NCBI RefSeq assembly: GCF_013359685.1
Contig: NZ_JABFMV010000004.1
Span: 1 to 64,000 of the forward strand
Direction: 5' to 3'
DNA length: 64,000 nucleotides
Origin: Leifsonia sp. C5G2
GTDB taxonomy: Bacteria; Actinomycetota; Actinomycetes; Actinomycetales; Microbacteriaceae
Positions 46,717-60,340 of the stretch are shown here, piece after piece. The notes under the pieces were generated by a model. It worked only from the letters and a program-made list of their open reading frames with translations, was not told where the DNA came from and ran no database searches. How positions within the stretch are numbered: the first letter of the stretch is position 1; every line of letters begins with the position of its first letter. The position numbers were made by a program, and so were the translations under genes.

Positions 46717-47880
46717 CTACGGCCGCACCGCGACCCGCGGGTGCGTCGTCGCGGCGAGCGCCCGATCCACCTCGGCCAGCGGGAAGGTCTCCCCGACCTG
46801 CTCGGCGAACGGGTAGCGCTGCCACGTCTCGGCGAGGAAGCGGACCGCCTGCTCCAGGTGGCGCGGCGCATAGTTGTGGACGCCGCGGATCGTGAGCAGG
46901 CGCCGCACGAGCTGCTCCGGCACGATCCCGAGCTCCGGCCCGGGGCAGACCGACCCCACGAGCACGAGCACCCCGCCGACGTCGACCGCGGCGAGCAGGG
47001 AGCGGACGGCGGAGGGGTTGCCGGAGAGCTCCAGCGCGATCGTCGGCGCCGGCGCCCGGCCGCCCGCCTTCGCCAGCACGGAGGCGAGACCGGAGGGGGA
47101 GCCGGCGGCGGCGCGCGGGTCGGCCACGCCGATGGCGCCGAAGGCGAGCGCCGCCTCCCTGCGCTCGGGCAGCGGCTCGCTCACGACGACGCGGGCGCCG
47201 GCCTCCGTCGCCATCGCGGTCGCGGTGAGGCCGAGCATCCCGGCGCCGGCGACGAGCACGAGCGCGCCCTCAAGCGGGACGATGACGGACGCGGCCTCCA
47301 GGGCTGCGGCCACGGTCGCCGTCGAGCAGGAGGCCGGGGCGAGCACCTCCGCCGGGATGTCGTCCGGGACCCGCACGAGCGGGGTCCCGTCGAGGATGTG
47401 GGTGTGCGTGGCGAAGCCGCCGGACAGCTCCCAGCCGCGGCGCATCCGCTCGTGGCCGTACTTCTGGAGGCCTGCGCACTTCTGCGGAAGGCCGCGTCGG
47501 CAGCGGGCGCAGCGCCCGCACGGCACCGCGACCGACCAGACGACGCGCTCGCCCAGCGAGACGCGGTGTCCGTCGGTCGTCTTCGCGCCGCCGCGGCCGA
47601 GCGCGACGACGCGGCCGACCTGCTCGTGGCCGAGCACCAGCGGCGCCTGCGCCTGCCGGTGGCCGAGCACAGTGTGCACGTCGGAGCCGCAGACGGTCGC
47701 GAGCTCCACCTCCACGAGCACGTCCCCCGGCGCCAGGCGCACGCCGGGCACGGCGACCGCCTCGTGGGCGTGCCCCTCCCCCGGCCACACCATGGCGGTG
47801 GCGGACGGATACACGCTGACCCCCATCCCCAGGCGCGCCGGCGGCTCCACGACGCGCGGGGTCACCGCCTTGACCGTCAC
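46717..47880 (-). CDS. Zinc-dependent dehydrogenase, phosphonate-catabolism type
   Basis: 387 residues, GTG start overlapping the HAD gene stop. Medium-chain dehydrogenase: catalytic zinc site CGSDVHT near 61-67, structural zinc cluster CGRCARCRRGLPQKC, and nucleotide loop VAGAGMLGLTA. Its place after a phosphonatase-like and a FAD oxidoreductase gene matches the TIGR03366 group described as phosphonate-catabolism-associated alcohol dehydrogenase. Substrate unproved. Confidence 0.85.
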   Translation of the reverse strand: MTVKAVTPRVVEPPARLGMGVSVYPSATAMVWPGEGHAHEAVAVPGVRLAPGDVLVEVELATVCGSDVHTVLGHRQAQAPLVLGHEQVGRVVALGRGGAKTTDGHRVSLGERVVWSVAVPCGRCARCRRGLPQKCAGLQKYGHERMRRGWELSGGFATHTHILDGTPLVRVPDDIPAEVLAPASCSTATVAAALEAASVIVPLEGALVLVAGAGMLGLTATAMATEAGARVVVSEPLPERREAALAFGAIGVADPRAAAGSPSGLASVLAKAGGRAPAPTIALELSGNPSAVRSLLAAVDVGGVLVLVGSVCPGPELGIVPEQLVRRLLTIRGVHNYAPRHLEQAVRFLAETWQRYPFAEQVGETFPLAEVDRALAATTHPRVAVRP

Positions 47881-48749
47881 CGGGCGCCGAGCCCGGCGAG
47901 GTCGTGGTAGCCGAGGAGCTCGGGGAGGTCGGCAACACTGGGCAGCACGGCGTCGGCCCCGGCATCCAGCAGGGTGCGTTCGTCGTGCGCACCGGTCAGC
48001 ACGCCGACGACGAGCCCGGCACCGGCGGCGATGCCCGACGCGATGTCGGCCGGGGTGTCGCCGACGACGACCATCCCCTCGACGCTGGAGGTGCCGGTGC
48101 GCAGCAGGGCCGTCAGAGGGAGATCGGGGAATGGCCGGGCGCGGCCCGCGTCGTCCGCGCTCAGCGCCACGTCGGCGACGTCACGCCAGCCGACGGCGGC
48201 GAGCACCGCGTCCTGGGCGGTCTGCGACAGGCCGGTCACGAGGGCGACCTTGACGCCGGTGGCGCGGAGGAGCCGGATGACGTCCTCGGCGCCCGGGACG
48301 GCTCCGAGGCCGCCGACGGCGGCGATGTCTGCATATGCGGACGAGAACACGGCGGCGGCGTGCTGCGCCTGGTCGTCGTCGCCCGTCAGGGTGCGGAACA
48401 CCGCGAGAGGCGACCGGACGACGGCCTGGCGCGCGAAGTCCAGGGCGTCCTGACGGGCGGCCGGGGCCGGAGCGATCCCTGCAGCGTCGGCCGCGCGCTC
48501 GAAGGCGCGCTCCACCAGCCCGTCGTCGAGCAGGGTCGTGCCCGCGAGGGAGAGCACGACGAGCTCCAGGTCGGCGAGGTCGTCGTCCCGGCCGTCGTCG
48601 CCGCGGTCCTCCGCCCGCACGGCCGCGTCGTCGTCGAGGCCGTCGTCGAAGGCGTCCCAGTCCTCGTCGTCGGTGGATTCCGTCCCGAAGCCCGTCGCCT
48701 CCACGGTCACGTCGTCGAACTCGCTGGTGATGCGGCCGTCAGGGGTCAT
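47877..48749 (-). CDS. Phosphonatase-like HAD protein with altered nucleophile
   Basis: 290 residues. Residues 1-60 are a very acidic, disordered-looking extension. The HAD core then shows VALVTGLS (motif II), GRARPFPD (motif III region) and VVVGDTPAD (motif IV), as in the TIGR03351 phosphonatase-like group. Motif I reads LVVLSLAGTT, with Ser67 where the nucleophile Asp is expected. Either catalysis is lost or altered, or the protein is regulatory. Middle gene of a three-gene operon. Confidence 0.8.
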   Translation of the reverse strand: MTPDGRITSEFDDVTVEATGFGTESTDDEDWDAFDDGLDDDAAVRAEDRGDDGRDDDLADLELVVLSLAGTTLLDDGLVERAFERAADAAGIAPAPAARQDALDFARQAVVRSPLAVFRTLTGDDDQAQHAAAVFSSAYADIAAVGGLGAVPGAEDVIRLLRATGVKVALVTGLSQTAQDAVLAAVGWRDVADVALSADDAGRARPFPDLPLTALLRTGTSSVEGMVVVGDTPADIASGIAAGAGLVVGVLTGAHDERTLLDAGADAVLPSVADLPELLGYHDLAGLGAR

Positions 48750-48773
48750 GGTGGTGCCTTTCGTGCGGTGCGG

Positions 48774-49934
48774 CTAGCGGGCGCGGGCTGCGGAGCCCGC
48801 GGAGGTGAGGGACCCGAGGGCGCCGGCGAACAGCTCGTCGACGACCCGGTCGGCGAGGCCGAGACCGGTGGTCATGCCGATGCCCGCCGTCACCGAGACG
48901 ACACGGACGGCCGGAGCGGGTGAGGCGACGAGGAACTCGTCGGGCGCCGACGCGTACACGCCCTGCCAGCGCTCCCGGACGCGCAAGTCCGCCGTCCCGA
49001 ATAGCTCCCGTGCCTGCTCCAGCAGCAGGTCGAACGCGCCTTCGAGCTGGAACGGCGACACGTCCTCGCTCCGGTGCTGCGTTCCGCCGATCAGGAGCGC
49101 GCCGTCGGCGCGCTGCGTGTACAGCTGGTTCGCGTCGAGCGCGGCGAGCGCCGGGTGCTCGGCCGCGAGCCGGTCGTGCAGGGCGGAGGCGCTCGGCGTG
49201 CGCGCGAAGCCGGCGTAGCGCAGGAGCGACCAGCCGGTGAGCAGCGGCGAGGTGAGCGGACGGTCGAGCTCCGCCTCCAGCAGCATCATGTCGACCGCGC
49301 AGCGCCGGATCCCGTGATCGTCGGCGAGGCCGGGGAACAGCTGATCGAGGTCGTGATCGACCGCGACGACCACGGCGTCCCCGGCGAGCCGGCCGCGGGT
49401 GGTGTGGACGCGTCCCGTCTCGACGCCGACCACAGCCGTCTGCCAGAAGAAGTCGACACCGTGCGCGTCGAGCCACCGGCCGATCGCGGTGGGCGCTTCC
49501 CGCGGGTCGACCTGGAGGTCGGCGGGCAGGAACGCACCGCCGACTGCGACGCCGTCGGCGACCGGCACCCGGTCACGCACCTCGGCAGGAGTCAGGATGC
49601 GGGCGTCCTGGCCGCCGCGGCGCTCTCGGAACTCCTCCAGCACCGCCAGCTCGTCCTCCGCCCGGGCCACGACCATGGTGCCGGTCTCGCCCAGCCAGAA
49701 TCCCGCCTCCGGCGCGAGCGTCAGCCACAGCTCGCGCGCCAGCTCCGCGTACGCGCGGGCCTCGCCCTCCTGGCCCGTGACGCAGAGGTGGCCGGAGTTG
49801 CGGACGGAGGCTCCGGTGATCCCGGACGCGCGGTCCACCACGGCGACGGTGAGCCCACGGCGGAGTGCGGCGACGGCGTGCCCGAGACCGACGATGCCCG
49901 CGCCGACCACGACGAGGTCGTAATGCCTGCCCAT
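48774..49934 (-). CDS. FAD-dependent amine oxidoreductase (DAO family, TIGR03364 type)
   Basis: 386 residues. The N-terminal Rossmann motif [18 protein letters not shown] and a late [12 protein letters not shown] are those of DAO-type flavoproteins. Together with the two genes that follow it forms the set of families linked to phosphonate use; relatives oxidise N-substituted aminoethylphosphonates. No phosphonate transporter or C-P lyase gene is in the window. First gene of the operon, divergent from kynA. ATG 49934 chosen for the standard N-terminus. Confidence 0.85.
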
Positions 49935-50083
49935 CCCGAGCCCCTCTCTCCGCTCCCTGCGACGCCGCAGCACCGCCCGACCGGGGTCGACGGGCTCCGA
50001 CGTGCACGCTACGCACCGCGCCCAACCCCCCGGTTACGCGCGGGTGAACGTTCGTCCCGCGCCCGGCCCGTTTCGTGGTGCCG

Positions 50084-50186: not shown

Positions 50187-51047
50187 ATGGTGGATGGCGA
50201 CAACACCCGCGAGTTCGACCCCGACATCGTCACCGACTTCCGCGAGCGGATGTCGTACGGCTCCTACCTGGACCTCGGGACGCTGCTCAGCGCGCAGCGA
50301 CCGGTGAGCCGTCCGCCGCACCACGACGAGCTGCTGTTCATCATCCAGCACCAGACCACCGAGCTCTGGCTGAAGCTGGTACTTCACGAGCTGGAGTCGG
50401 CCCGCGACCTGCTGCGCGCGGACGACCTCTCGCCCGCCCTCAAGCGCATCGCCCGCGTGAAGCACATCCAGCGCACCCTGACCGAGCAGTGGTCGGTGCT
50501 GGCGACTCTGACGCCGACCGAATACGCGGAGTTCCGCGGGTTCCTCGGCAACTCGTCGGGCTTCCAGTCGTACCAGTACCGCGCGGTCGAGTTCGTGCTC
50601 GGCAACAAGAACCGCCGCATGCTGAGCGTCTTCGAGAGCGACCCGGACGCGCACGCCCTGCTGGCCGCGCTGCTGGAGGCTCCCAGCATCTACGACGAGT
50701 TCCTGCGGTACCTCGCCCGGGCCGGCTTCGCCGTGCCGCGCGCTCTGCTGGAGCGGGACGTCACCCAGGCCCACGTCTTCACACCGGAGCTCGTGCCGGT
50801 GTTCCGCGAGATCTACGAGCACGCCGCGGACCACTGGCGCGAGTACGAGGCCTGCGAGGAGTTCGTCGATCTGGAGGACAACTTCCAGCTCTGGCGCTTC
50901 CGCCACTTGAAGACCGTTCAGCGCACGATCGGGATGAAGACGGGAACCGGCGGATCCTCCGGAGCCGGCTTCCTCCAGAAGGCACTCGAGCTGACCTTCT
51001 TCCCCGAGCTGTACGCCGTCCGCACCGAGATCGGGACACCCGCATGA
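50187..51047 (+). CDS. kynA: Tryptophan 2,3-dioxygenase
   Basis: Haem enzyme opening the indole ring of tryptophan to N-formylkynurenine. 286 residues; active-site [14 protein letters not shown] with the distal His, YQYRAVEF, and the proximal-His region [20 protein letters not shown]. First gene of a kynA-amidohydrolase-kynU-paaX operon. No ribosome site before ATG 50187. Confidence 0.97.
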
Positions 51048-52180
51048 GCACGCCGGAGCCCACTCCCGCCACACCGCCCGGCGCGACCACACCGTCCGGC
51101 GCGACCACACCGCCCGGCGCCGACACCTACCTCACAGTCGACGCCGTCTGGACCGGCCACCGCTTCCTCGGCGAGACCACCTTCCGCTGCGACGGCGAGC
51201 GCTTGCATCCACTCGACGACGACCGCGTCCCCGCACGGGCGGCCGCGGACGGCCGCCACCTGCGCATCGACGGCACGCTCTTCCCGCGCCTGACCGACCA
51301 CCACGTCCACCTCGGCCTGACCGACCAGCACGCGGTCTTCGCCGGCGGCGTGACGCACGCGATCGACCTCGGCTGGGTGCCGGCGGTGGCCGCCGGCTGG
51401 CTGACGGACGACCTCACCCGCCCGTCCGTCGCGATCGTCGGCTCGCTCCTCACCTGCCGGGGCGGTTACCCGGTCAATGCCGGGTGGGGACCGCCGGGCT
51501 CCTCGACGGAGGTCGGCGGCGAGCGGGAGGCGCGGCTGGCGGTGCGGGCGAATGTCATGCTGGGAGCCTCCCGCATCAAGGTCACCCTCAACACCGAGGC
51601 CGGCGAAACTGTGGATGACCGCGTCCTTCTCGGAATTGTGAGGGAGTCGCACGCCCAGGGCGTCCCCGTGACGGTGCACGTCCAGGGCGAGGGCCAGACC
51701 GCGCGGGCGGTCGCCGCCGGCGCCGACCAGCTCGCCCACACCCCGTTCACCGAGCGGGTCGGCGACGACCTGATCGCCGAGTGCGTCCGCCGCGGCGTCA
51801 CCTGGGTCAGCACGCTCGACATCCACGGCTGGGGCGAGCCGACCGAGCAGCACGCCATCGCCTCCGACAACCTCGGCCGGTTCGCCCGCGCCGGCGGACA
51901 CGTGCTCTACGGCACCGACCTCGGCAACGGCCCACTCCCCGTCGGCGTGAACGCCCGGGAGCTGCGCGGGATGCTCGACGCCGCCGTCCCGGCGCACGCG
52001 CTGCTGCGGTCGATCGCCGGCCTCCGGCGTCCCGACGACGGCACCCCGCCGACCATCGGAGCGCGCCTGGCGCTCGTCCCCTCCGCCCCGCCGTCCGACC
52101 CGGACGCGCTGCCCGACTGGCTGGCGACCGCCCGCGGCCTGACGGTCGCGCGCCTCGCCGCCGGCGCCGCTCGCCCATGA
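51044..52180 (+). CDS. Amidohydrolase-superfamily protein, candidate formylkynurenine formamidase
   Basis: 378 residues; ATG overlaps the kynA stop (ATGA). After a Pro/Thr-rich N-terminus (1-28, with two copies of GATTP), the full metal set of amidohydrolases appears: H87-V-H89 (DHHVHLGL), a Lys in SRIKVTLNT, His in VHVQGEG and LAHTPF, and Asp in YGTDLGN. No kynB-type formamidase is in the operon, and this gene occupies its step between kynA and kynU. I infer it hydrolyses N-formylkynurenine; other amide or ring substrates are possible. Confidence 0.8.
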
Positions 52181-52208: not shown

Positions 52209-53486
52209 ATGACCGACTTCGACCCCGCCCCGCCCGCCTCGCTCTCCCCCGACCCGCTCACCGCCGCGCGGGCGCGGGACGCGGCCGACCCGCTCGCCGC
52301 CTACCGACGCCGCTTCGCCGGGATCGACGACGGCAGCAGCTCCGTCGTCGCCTACTTCGACGGCAACTCGCTGGGGCGCCCGACCCGTGCGAGCATCGAG
52401 CGCATCCACGAGTTCCTGGTGAACGGCTGGGGCGGCCGCCTCATCCGCGGCTGGGACGAGGAATGGATGGAGCTGCCCTTCGCGATCGGCGACGAGCTCG
52501 GCCGTGTGGCGCTCGGTGCCGCCCCCGGGCAGACGTTCATCGGGGACTCGACGACCGTCCTGCTCTACAAGCTGGCGCGCGCGGCGGTCGACAGCCTCCC
52601 GGAGCGCAGCGAGATCGTGCTGGACACCGACAACTTCCCGACCGACCGCTACCTGCTCGACGGCATCGCGCGCGAGCGCGGACTGCGCCTGGTCTGGATC
52701 GAGGCCGACACCGAAGCCGGGGTCACCCCCGAGCAGGTCGCCGCCGCGGTCGGCCCGCACACCGCCCTGGTGGTGCTGAGCCACGTCGCGTACCGGTCCG
52801 GATTCCTCGCCGACCTCGCCACGATCACCCGCATCGTCCACGACGCCGGCGCGCTCGTGCTGTGGGACCTCTGCCACTCCGCGGGCTCGGTCCCGGTCGA
52901 GCTGGACGCGGCGGACGTCGACCTCGCCGTCGGCTGCACCTACAAGTACCTCAACGGCGGCCCCGGCTCCCCGGCGCTCGGCTACGTGAACGCGCGGCTC
53001 ATCCCGGAACTCACCCAGCCGATCCAGGGCTGGATGGGCGTGCGCGACGTCTTCCTGATGGGACCCGAGTACGTCCCCGCCGACGGTGTCCGGCGCTTCC
53101 TCAGCGGCACGCCGCCGGTGGTCGGGATGCTCGCCATGCGCGACACCGTCGACATGATCGGCGAGGCGGGCATCGACGCGGTGCGGGCGAAGTCGGTCGC
53201 ACTGACGGAGTTCGCCATCGCGCTCGCCGACGAGTGGCTGACGCCGCTCGGGGTGACCCTCGCCAGCCCGCGCGACCCGGAGCGGCGCGGCGGCCACATC
53301 ACCCTCAGCCACCCGGCCATGCGCCGGGTGACGGAGCTGCTCTGGCAGCGCGACGTCATCCCGGACTACCGCGACCCCGACGGCCTGCGCGTCGGCTTGT
53401 CGCCGCTGAGCACGAGCTTCGAGGAGGTCTGCGCCGGGATGGCCGCCGTGCGCGATGTCCTGGGCGAGCTCCTCACGCATGACTGA
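52209..53486 (+). CDS. kynU: Kynureninase
   Basis: PLP enzyme cleaving kynurenine to anthranilate and alanine. 425 residues; PLP Lys in GCTYKYLNGGPGSPA (near 240), FDGNSLGRP near 50 and DLCHSAGSVPV near 218 are signatures. It follows the amidohydrolase by 28 bases and overlaps the PaaX gene by 8 bases. No 3-hydroxykynurenine pathway genes are present, so the route likely stops at anthranilate here. Confidence 0.97.
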   Translation: MTDFDPAPPASLSPDPLTAARARDAADPLAAYRRRFAGIDDGSSSVVAYFDGNSLGRPTRASIERIHEFLVNGWGGRLIRGWDEEWMELPFAIGDELGRVALGAAPGQTFIGDSTTVLLYKLARAAVDSLPERSEIVLDTDNFPTDRYLLDGIARERGLRLVWIEADTEAGVTPEQVAAAVGPHTALVVLSHVAYRSGFLADLATITRIVHDAGALVLWDLCHSAGSVPVELDAADVDLAVGCTYKYLNGGPGSPALGYVNARLIPELTQPIQGWMGVRDVFLMGPEYVPADGVRRFLSGTPPVVGMLAMRDTVDMIGEAGIDAVRAKSVALTEFAIALADEWLTPLGVTLASPRDPERRGGHITLSHPAMRRVTELLWQRDVIPDYRDPDGLRVGLSPLSTSFEEVCAGMAAVRDVLGELLTHD

Positions 53487-54345
53487 CGGGCCGGCCCGCG
53501 ACGACCTGGAGGCGAGCAGCGGCAGCGCCGCGGCGCTCCTGCGGACCGTCGTCGGCAGCGTTCTGCGGCCCATCGGCGGGTGGATGAGCGCGGCCGGGGC
53601 GGTCCGGCTGATGGATGCGCTCGGCGTTCCCGCGGCGACCGCACGCTCCGGCCTCGCCCGGTTGTGCTCGCGCGGGGTGCTCCGGCGCGAGCCGCGCGAT
53701 GGCGTCGCCGGGTACGCGATAGACCCCGCCGCCCACGCGATGCTGGAGCGCGGGGACGCGCGCATCTTCGGCGAGCGCGTGGAGGCGCCCACGTGGTGCC
53801 TGCTGTCGCTGTCGTTCCCGGAGCACGGGCGCGGTGCTCGCGACCGGCTGCGCCGCCGGCTCGCCTCGCTGGGCTGCGGCGCCGTCGCCGACGGGCTCTG
53901 GATCGCACCGTCCGCACTGGAGGACGAGCTCGCGTCGGTGGTAGCCGGCCTCGGGGGCGCCATCCAGGGCGCGGGGGCACCGGCCGTCGCGCTCTTCTCG
54001 GGCGCGCTCCCGCACGGCGATCTCGCCGCGGGGCTGGCGCGCTGGTACGACCTCCCCGCGATCCGGGCGGCGCACGACGGCTTCCTCGCCCGGTTCGGCG
54101 CGGCGGCCGAGACACCTCCCGCCGACGACGCCGCCGCGTTCGCCCTGTGGATCCGCGTGCTCGACGAGTGGCGCATCATCCCGTACCGCGACCCGGGCCT
54201 GCCCTCTGCAGCCCTCCCCGCCGACTGGCCCGGCGCCGCCTCCTCCGCCCTGTTCCGGAGGCTGCGGGCGGCGCTCGAGGACCGCGCCGTCGCGCACGCC
54301 GCCGCGGTCGCCGCACCGGAACCGGCCACCGTCTCCGCACGGTAG
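53479..54345 (+). CDS. PaaX-family transcriptional regulator
   Basis: 288 residues. N-terminal winged helix (about 18-90; GAVRLMDALGVPAATARSGLARL), a central PaaX region (WCLLSLSFPEHGRGARDRLRRRL) and a PaaX C-terminal helical domain. PaaX represses phenylacetate genes and is controlled by phenylacetyl-CoA; this relative, co-encoded with kyn genes, probably controls tryptophan breakdown, with a kynurenine-type or anthraniloyl-CoA-type effector possible. Confidence 0.88.
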   Translation: MTDGPARDDLEASSGSAAALLRTVVGSVLRPIGGWMSAAGAVRLMDALGVPAATARSGLARLCSRGVLRREPRDGVAGYAIDPAAHAMLERGDARIFGERVEAPTWCLLSLSFPEHGRGARDRLRRRLASLGCGAVADGLWIAPSALEDELASVVAGLGGAIQGAGAPAVALFSGALPHGDLAAGLARWYDLPAIRAAHDGFLARFGAAAETPPADDAAAFALWIRVLDEWRIIPYRDPGLPSAALPADWPGAASSALFRRLRAALEDRAVAHAAAVAAPEPATVSAR

Positions 54346-59332: not shown

Positions 59333-59338
59333 GTGGGG

Positions 59339-60340
59339 ATGACACGGGCGCGCCGGGCGGCGGGGATCATCGGAGGCGCGCTCGCCGCCGCGGGCGTCGC
59401 GGCCGGACTCGCACGCTCCACGCCGTGGCCGTCTGCGCTGGTGATCCGTCGCGTCTTCGAGAAGGGCGCCGCCGAGACGGTCGCCGAGATGGAGCCGTTC
59501 GTCCCGACCGGCGGCGTGACCGCGCGGACCGGGCTGCGGTATGCGCCCGGCACGCCCGACACGACGTTCGACCTGTTCCGGTCGGAGTGCGAGGGCGGCC
59601 CGCTGCCGGCCGTCGTGTGGATCCACGGCGGCGCGTGGATCTCGGGCGCCAGCAAGGACGTCGAGCCGTACCTGCGCATCCTGGCTTCACACGGGTACGC
59701 GACGGTCGGGCTCAACTACACGCTCGGGCCGGAGGCGTCGTACCCGACCGCGGTGGAGCAGCTGAACACGGCCCTCGCCCACCTCGACGCCCACGCCGAC
59801 GAGCTCGGGATCGACCGCGAGCGGATCGTCCTCGCCGGCGACTCGGCCGGGTCGCAGCTCGCCAGCCAGCTGGCCGTGCTCACCACGAGCCCGGAGTACG
59901 CGCACCTTCTCGGCATCCGACCGTCGCTGCGGCGCGAGCAGCTGGCCGCCGTGGTGCTCACCTGCGGCGTGTACGACCTGGGGGCGCTGTCGACGCTGGA
60001 CGGCATCCTGGCCTGGGGCTTCAAGACGGCGCTCTGGTCGTACGGCGGCGACAAGAACTGGTCGCAGACGTACGTCGGCTCGACGATGTCCACCATCCGG
60101 CACGTCACCGGCGACTTCCCGCCCACCTACATCTCCGGCGGCAACGGCGACGGCCTCACCTGGTCGCAGTCGGTGCCGATGGCGACGACACTGCGCGGCA
60201 AGGGAGTGGACGTGACGGAGCTGTTCTGGCCGGCCAACCACGAACCGCCACTGCCGCACGAGTTCCAGTTCCACCTGAGGTTCGACGAGGCGCACCAGGC
60301 GCTGGATGCGACGCTCGCGTTCCTGAAGCGGCACACCTAG
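59339..60340 (+). CDS. Alpha/beta-hydrolase (HSL-like esterase/lipase)
   Basis: 333 residues. Oxyanion-hole motif WIHGGAWISG near 93-102, nucleophile elbow GDSAGSQLA near 163-171 and a late His in ANHEPPLPHEF. A hydrophobic N-terminal helix (about 5-26) may be a membrane anchor or signal. Substrate unknown. It overlaps the stop of the convergent EamA gene by four bases. Confidence 0.9.
   Translation: MTRARRAAGIIGGALAAAGVAAGLARSTPWPSALVIRRVFEKGAAETVAEMEPFVPTGGVTARTGLRYAPGTPDTTFDLFRSECEGGPLPAVVWIHGGAWISGASKDVEPYLRILASHGYATVGLNYTLGPEASYPTAVEQLNTALAHLDAHADELGIDRERIVLAGDSAGSQLASQLAVLTTSPEYAHLLGIRPSLRREQLAAVVLTCGVYDLGALSTLDGILAWGFKTALWSYGGDKNWSQTYVGSTMSTIRHVTGDFPPTYISGGNGDGLTWSQSVPMATTLRGKGVDVTELFWPANHEPPLPHEFQFHLRFDEAHQALDATLAFLKRHT

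Follow-up and report, generated by a model that had tools for sequence, protein, structure and literature searches.

Known kynurenine formamidases and related hydrolases

For the second step in the breakdown of tryptophan, unrelated enzymes are already known. Two formamidase classes, KynB and the alpha/beta-hydrolase KFase, are established (PMC4243253). In the same text, the KynB ligand set comprises His50, His54, Asp56, His60, His161 and Glu173, with His50 and His54 binding zinc in KynB structures, and a survey of 336 sequences found His54 strictly conserved and His50 in 99.7% (PMC4243253). AFMID/KFase is described there as a serine hydrolase by fold, equipped with a catalytic triad, and ACMSD, the lower kynurenine pathway decarboxylase, as binding one zinc (PMC4243253). 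In mycemycin biosynthesis, the 'amidohydrolase' MymD (513 aa; counterpart MyeD) was proposed to act between tryptophan dioxygenase and kynureninase, and mycemycins A and B were lost when myeD was deleted (PMC5867642).

The window analysed here, a whole stretch of 64,000 nucleotides from Leifsonia sp. C5G2 (Microbacteriaceae), carries between kynA and kynU a gene named amdH here. Its product is very probably the kynurenine formamidase of this organism, metal-dependent and unrelated to KynB and AFMID, as judged from sequence-based analysis. KynB (PF04199, TIGR03035) would resemble AmdH in the proposed reaction, in the expected metal dependence and, in some distant relatives, in the position of its gene next to kynU, whereas fold and motif are unrelated. 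AFMID/KFase likewise shares the proposed reaction, and relatives devoid of AmdH carry AFMID-like genes at their kyn locus; nevertheless, AmdH is a TIM-barrel-type metallohydrolase rather than a serine hydrolase. MymD/MyeD is proposed for the very same deformylation of N-formylkynurenine, but MymD is longer (513 versus 378 aa) and belongs to a natural-product cluster. ACMSD belongs to the same superfamily and the same broad pathway, but acts further downstream with one zinc, whereas AmdH has bridging-lysine ligands. An ACMSD identity for AmdH was therefore discarded on pathway step and ligand set. In the published literature, covered mostly by titles and the beginnings of abstracts, no report of the AmdH family as a formamidase was recognised, the mycemycin proposal aside.

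The kynA-amdH-kynU operon

The features of the operon are given in Table 1. The start codon of amdH overlaps the kynA stop as ATGA, 28 bases separate the amdH stop from the kynU ATG, and amdH is the sole gene in the kynA-kynU interval. The initial annotation had described an operon with KynA and KynU and an amidohydrolase gene between them, and this description holds: kynA scores over the TIGR03036 cut-off, kynU passes KYNU_C while staying under TIGR01814, and the amidohydrolase reading frame has exactly the limits described. Since the reactions of KynA and KynU are one chemical step apart, and no gene other than amdH separates kynA from kynU, the locus itself points to a formamidase.

Table 1. 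Features of the kynA-amdH-kynU locus, with expected metal-ligand codons of amdH
Feature	Position	Strand	Evidence
HpnZ-type dehydrogenase	within 46717-49973	-	TIGR03366 437 bits, over cut-off
PhnX-like HAD hydrolase	within 46717-49973	-	TIGR03351 206.9, just under cut-off
HpnW-type FAD oxidoreductase	within 46717-49973	-	TIGR03364 382, over cut-off
kynA, tryptophan 2,3-dioxygenase, 286 aa	50187..51047	+	TIGR03036 401.4 bits (cut-off 390.7); PF03301 205.8 bits
amdH, amidohydrolase-superfamily protein, proposed N-formylkynurenine formamidase, 378 aa	51044..52180	+	complete ORF; superfamily-fold model
H87-V88-H89 codons, HxH metal ligands after first barrel strand	51302..51310	+	H87 and H89 invariant, 28/28
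K179 codon, expected carboxylated bridging lysine	51578..51580	+	invariant in 28 rows; K in 64/64 operonic rows
H212 codon, expected metal ligand	51677..51679	+	invariant in 28-row alignment
H232 codon, expected metal ligand	51737..51739	+	invariant in 28-row alignment
D292 codon, expected metal ligand and general base/acid	51917..51919	+	invariant in 28-row alignment
kynU, kynureninase, 425 aa	52209..53486	+	KYNU_C 92 bits (cut-off 27); TIGR01814 222.5 bits (below cut-off 246.4)
PaaX-like regulator, overlaps kynU end	53479..54345	+	PaaX_C 65.4, PaaX_M 53.3, PaaX 28.8 bits, all over cut-off

The PaaX-like protein, which scores 94.8 bits against TIGR02277 (cut-off 264.55), is probably the regulator of the operon. 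PaaX proteins are known for responding to phenylacetyl-CoA, so the effector at the kyn locus may be a derivative of anthranilate or of kynurenine. A PaaX-like gene follows kynU here and in several relatives. On the opposite strand, three genes at 46717-49973 resemble a proposed phosphonate-catabolism set.

Sequence and structural features of AmdH

Across 28 aligned copies of AmdH, H87, H89, K179, H212, H232 and D292 show no variation. Among 64 operonic rows, the only departures at the computed metal ligands are gaps and one Q at H87. These residues read as a full ligand set of the amidohydrolase type that has a bridging lysine in a binuclear metal site, in agreement with the complete active site that had been noticed from the sequence at the outset. 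In the amidohydrolase superfamily, a lysine of the K179 type bridges the metals in carboxylated form.

Profile libraries give the protein no functional name, since its score against PF01979 is 21.1 bits, under the cut-off of 25 (a score threshold and not a superfamily-defining trait), and its only NCBIfam match is XaaProDiPepCaul at 35.5 bits against a cut-off of 500, with no equivalog model near its cut-off. The Pfam scan gave neither a PF04199 nor an alpha/beta-hydrolase match. The superfamily assignment is made on fold and ligands rather than on the PF01979 score. The predicted model (mean pLDDT 93) shows a barrel with a composite sandwich, a TIM-barrel-type metallohydrolase, and superposes best on 3be7 (Z 32.7, rmsd 2.7, 325 residues), with Z of about 30 for several more structures. 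Among the Foldseek best matches listed, the closest solved folds are arginine carboxypeptidases, prolidases including Xaa-Pro dipeptidase, ochratoxinase and related amide hydrolases. Such binuclear bridging-lysine enzymes (Cc2672 3mtw, 3be7, prolidase 3feq/3n2c, ADH3 8ihq, ochratoxinase 4c5y) share with AmdH a fold at Z of about 30 and the HxH/K/H/H/D positions, and profile alignment to ADH3 and LlADH places HxH, K179, H212, H232 and D292 on matching residues. Nevertheless, identity is only about 20%, Y142 of AmdH corresponds to H in ADH3 and LlADH, and the substrates of these enzymes, by name or title, are peptides and ochratoxin A.

Taken by sequence and fold alone, AmdH would thus be placed among dipeptidase, carboxypeptidase and ochratoxin-hydrolase relatives and not be called a formamidase. 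The fold matches to Xaa-Pro dipeptidase and arginine carboxypeptidases, and the sole, far sub-cut-off XaaProDiPepCaul match, would suit an enzyme that supplies KynA with tryptophan or a different aromatic amino acid by cleaving peptides or N-acyl-amino acids, with deformylation left to an unrecognised hydrolase or occurring spontaneously. This possibility is weighed below against the neighbourhoods of amdH. The formamidase reading also draws on the structural comparison, because the nearest folds among the matches listed are metal-dependent amide or peptide hydrolases.

Beyond the metal ligands, Y142, W148, H261, Y289 and N295 are kept, gaps aside, in all 64 operonic rows (63 genomes). The three weak paralogues found in the home family keep the metal ligands but lack all five of these residues. 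In distant copies near KynU-like genes (n = 16), Y142, W148, Y289 and N295 are present in 16/16 and H261 in 7/16. For distant copies with no KynU-like neighbour (n = 24), Y142, Y289 and N295 are kept in 22/24 and W148 in 19/24, and H261 is absent from the common letters. This pattern indicates that H261 marks the home family and not the whole AmdH group. In three loci (L026, L029, L030), the chosen amdH frames begin just before the HxH strand, so that the N-terminal sandwich part is missing.

Other formamidase candidates in the genome

The initial annotation had stated that neither a KynB-type nor an alpha/beta-hydrolase formamidase is encoded alongside KynA and KynU, and it had suggested a genome search for kynB. 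The computed absence of a KynB with intact ligands extends to the whole genome. The sole PF04199 protein, on contig C11 (L001:1477-2157), scores 58 bits on the KynB model TIGR03035 (cut-off 223) and carries NxGTYxDxPxH where KynB has its zinc motif; aligned to an over-cut-off KynB, it has N at His50 and Y at His54. On account of these two replaced zinc ligands, this cyclase was rejected as KynB. At 1e-5, an AFMID-like query taken from the kyn locus of a relative matched nothing in this genome or in four congeners. The statement on alpha/beta hydrolases needs qualification, however, for a BD-FAE-type enzyme of this fold (PF20434) lies within the window at 59333-60340, about 5 kb past the operon, and is formally a formamidase candidate.

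It could accordingly be argued that the true formamidase is one of these two proteins, both being present in the genome, and that AmdH handles a side product. The hydrolase in the window shares HGGAW with the AFMID-like genes of four f5 loci and PF20434 with the AFMID-like genes scanned. On the other hand, it has GDSAG where the AFMID-like genes have GHSAG, it was not matched at 1e-5 by the one AFMID-like query, it stands outside the operon, and its N-terminus appears by eye to start with a membrane or export helix; the PF04199 cyclase lacks two zinc ligands. Such a division of labour is therefore extremely unlikely, and AmdH is retained as the candidate formamidase.

Neighbourhood of amdH in Microbacteriaceae

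A neighbourhood survey, another check that had been proposed, was carried out on a Microbacteriaceae sample of 249 genomes and showed AmdH to be tightly linked to kynA and kynU, with AFMID-like hydrolases where AmdH is missing. AmdH matches at 1e-10 were found in 76 of the 249 genomes, representing 28 of 85 genera. By computed linkage, 55 have kynA-amdH-kynU (a count that includes G230, pieced together from two contigs), six have only kynA beside amdH, eight have only kynU and seven have neither. With both neighbours present in 55/76 matches, far beyond what chance would give, accidental proximity was rejected.

The incomplete neighbourhoods were followed by a separate KynU search in 17 chosen genomes. 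Where only kynA adjoins amdH, KynU was found elsewhere in 5/5 genomes tested, and the remaining one (G170) is cut off by a contig edge. Among the seven genomes with neither neighbour, four (genus g35) have KynU elsewhere and three carry the weak paralogues. Altogether, KynU was found in 72 of 73 genomes whose AmdH is not a weak paralogue. Twelve of these 72 have no KynA at 1e-20, eight of them with linked KynU and four (genus g35) with unlinked KynU. The loci with amdH-kynU and no kynA at 1e-20 are L050, L051, L052, L166, L171, L173, L181 and L035.

These twelve genomes bear directly on the idea that AmdH supplies an amino acid to KynA, since a feeder makes no sense where KynU is kept and KynA at 1e-20 is not. 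In addition, an AFMID-like hydrolase is the neighbour in six of nine ordinary-KynA loci without AmdH. The retention of AmdH with KynU in KynA-less genomes led to rejection of a feeder peptidase, a reading that now appears quite improbable, and leaves formamidase activity as the preferred function.

KynA itself was found in 86 of 249 family genomes, 16 of which have a divergent form (small genomes) and 70 an ordinary one; AmdH is present in 61/70 of the ordinary group and in 0/16 of the divergent group. The 16 small genomes gave neither an AmdH nor an AFMID-like match. In five of them that were fetched (L045-L049), kynU lies near kynA. No formamidase candidate was recognised by motif among the neighbours in L045-L048, nor in those of G084 (L039) and G256 (L218).

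KynB is rare in the family. The cut-off of TIGR03035 is passed in only 1 of 249 genomes (G019), in which KynA was not found at 1e-20 and one of the three weak AmdH paralogues is present. Of the 61 family genomes that have both KynA and AmdH, 17 also encode KynB-like proteins below the threshold. Zinc motifs of sub-threshold KynB-like proteins were read in G000, G146 and a few phylum genomes. In G146, the KynB-like protein (L165:609-1262) is encoded 3.7 kb from amdH and has Q at His50, with His54, Asp56 and His60 intact.

Displacement by AFMID-like hydrolases

AFMID/KFase enzymes carry an HGGxW motif together with GxSxG. An AFMID-like search covered 37 chosen genomes, 'AFMID-like' being a label from motif and place, as Pfam and NCBIfam name the three scanned proteins BD-FAE or lipase-like. 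The best Pfam match of the scanned genes was PF20434. Among the nine ordinary-KynA genomes without AmdH, eight have an AFMID-like alpha/beta hydrolase, which lies at the kyn locus beside kynA in six and elsewhere in two (G009, G138). The motifs HGG[YF] and GHSAG were read in all eight. The ninth genome (G084) has KynA and KynU with no AmdH and no AFMID-like match, and holds a sub-threshold KynB-like protein only. The 12 AmdH genomes included in the search gave three weak matches (best E 5e-8), two having HGGG with GGSAG and one being without the motif.

The computed displacement was traced on a KynA tree built from 69 of the 70 ordinary family rows (G170 left out), one of them unlabelled. The labels AmdH and AFMID-like need three changes (a group of six, G066 and G138), compared with a mean of 7.7 after shuffling, on a quick tree in which many branches are weak and the two outgroup rows do not group with each other; its starred branches force two label changes. 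On the same quick tree, the KynA of G256 (L218), from another family of the same order, nests among home-family KynA, and a transfer is possible. The kynA of G256 adjoins kynU without a recognised formamidase.

Similar arrangements occur outside the home family. In f5, which has large genomes, 6 of the 11 genomes with KynA were read widely, and in 6/6 of these loci a gene for a GHSAG hydrolase, 35-43% identical to those of the home family, follows kynU at a distance of 63 to about 1060 bases. Of five KynB genes that exceed the cut-off, three have a KynU as neighbour. Taken together, the AmdH, AFMID-like and KynB neighbourhoods suggest that, at kynurenine loci, KynU is accompanied by one of three hydrolases unrelated to each other.

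Proposed function and mechanism

Linkage and displacement are the grounds on which formamidase function is assigned to AmdH, and they lend support to the early suggestion of a non-homologous formamidase, for which the case is now strong, though slightly tempered by an AFMID label derived from motif and position and by the KynB-like protein near amdH in G146, most of whose zinc ligands are intact. We infer substrate, metals, lysine carboxylation and mechanism as follows. KynA would make N-formyl-L-kynurenine, AmdH would hydrolyse it to formate and L-kynurenine, and KynU would then cleave L-kynurenine to anthranilate and alanine. H87, H89, carboxylated K179, H212, H232 and D292 are predicted to hold two metals, whose bridging hydroxide would attack the formyl carbon, and D292 would hand a proton to the leaving aniline nitrogen. 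The pocket may be shaped with the help of Y142, W148, Y289 and N295, and in the home family also of H261.

A reversed order of steps would give the same net product, with KynU first converting N-formylkynurenine to N-formylanthranilate and AmdH then deformylating the latter. The same gene content and linkage would be expected, and AmdH is indeed tied to KynU at least as tightly as to KynA. However, the usual gene order puts AmdH between kynA and kynU, relatives that do without AmdH have AFMID-like genes at the kyn locus, and KynB, a family defined on N-formylkynurenine, lies beside KynU in three loci elsewhere. The reversed order is accordingly very unlikely, and hydrolysis of N-formylkynurenine ahead of KynU is the favoured route.

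If this is true, AmdH represents a third solution on another fold, which fills a pathway gap in many actinobacterial genomes and provides a sequence signature for annotation. The exchange between AmdH and AFMID-like enzymes would then be a clear-cut example of genes displacing one another repeatedly at a single step.

Distribution of AmdH across the phylum

In a phylum sample of 396 genomes, AmdH was found at 1e-25 in 54 and KynA in 84. Without the home family, 29 genomes have both AmdH and KynA, 50 KynA only, 20 AmdH only and 291 neither, a co-occurrence with a Fisher p of 9e-11 when genomes are taken as independent, so that kinship makes this p overstate the evidence. Among the 54 AmdH genomes, six match TIGR03035 at 1e-40, and none is over the cut-off.

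AmdH is likely, on the combined evidence, to constitute a third class of N-formylkynurenine formamidase with an independent evolutionary origin, usual in one family of Actinomycetota, recurrent in other lineages of the phylum and swapped with AFMID-like serine hydrolases several times. Where tryptophan dioxygenase is absent, it would form with KynU a two-gene module that uses N-formylkynurenine from outside.

Distant loci with wide flanking sequence, in part truncated by contig ends, were retrieved for 40 of the 49 genomes that have AmdH and lie outside the family. A KynU-like gene lies nearby in 16 and none in 24, and KynA was nearby in 0 of the 40. In most of these 16, the KynU-like neighbour reaches just 28-34% identity. 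Three such genes were tested, of which one passes TIGR01814 and two fall below it with TIGR01814 still their best match. The order kynA-amdH-kynU also occurs in Embleya sp. NBC_00888, a member of the Streptomycetaceae in another order.
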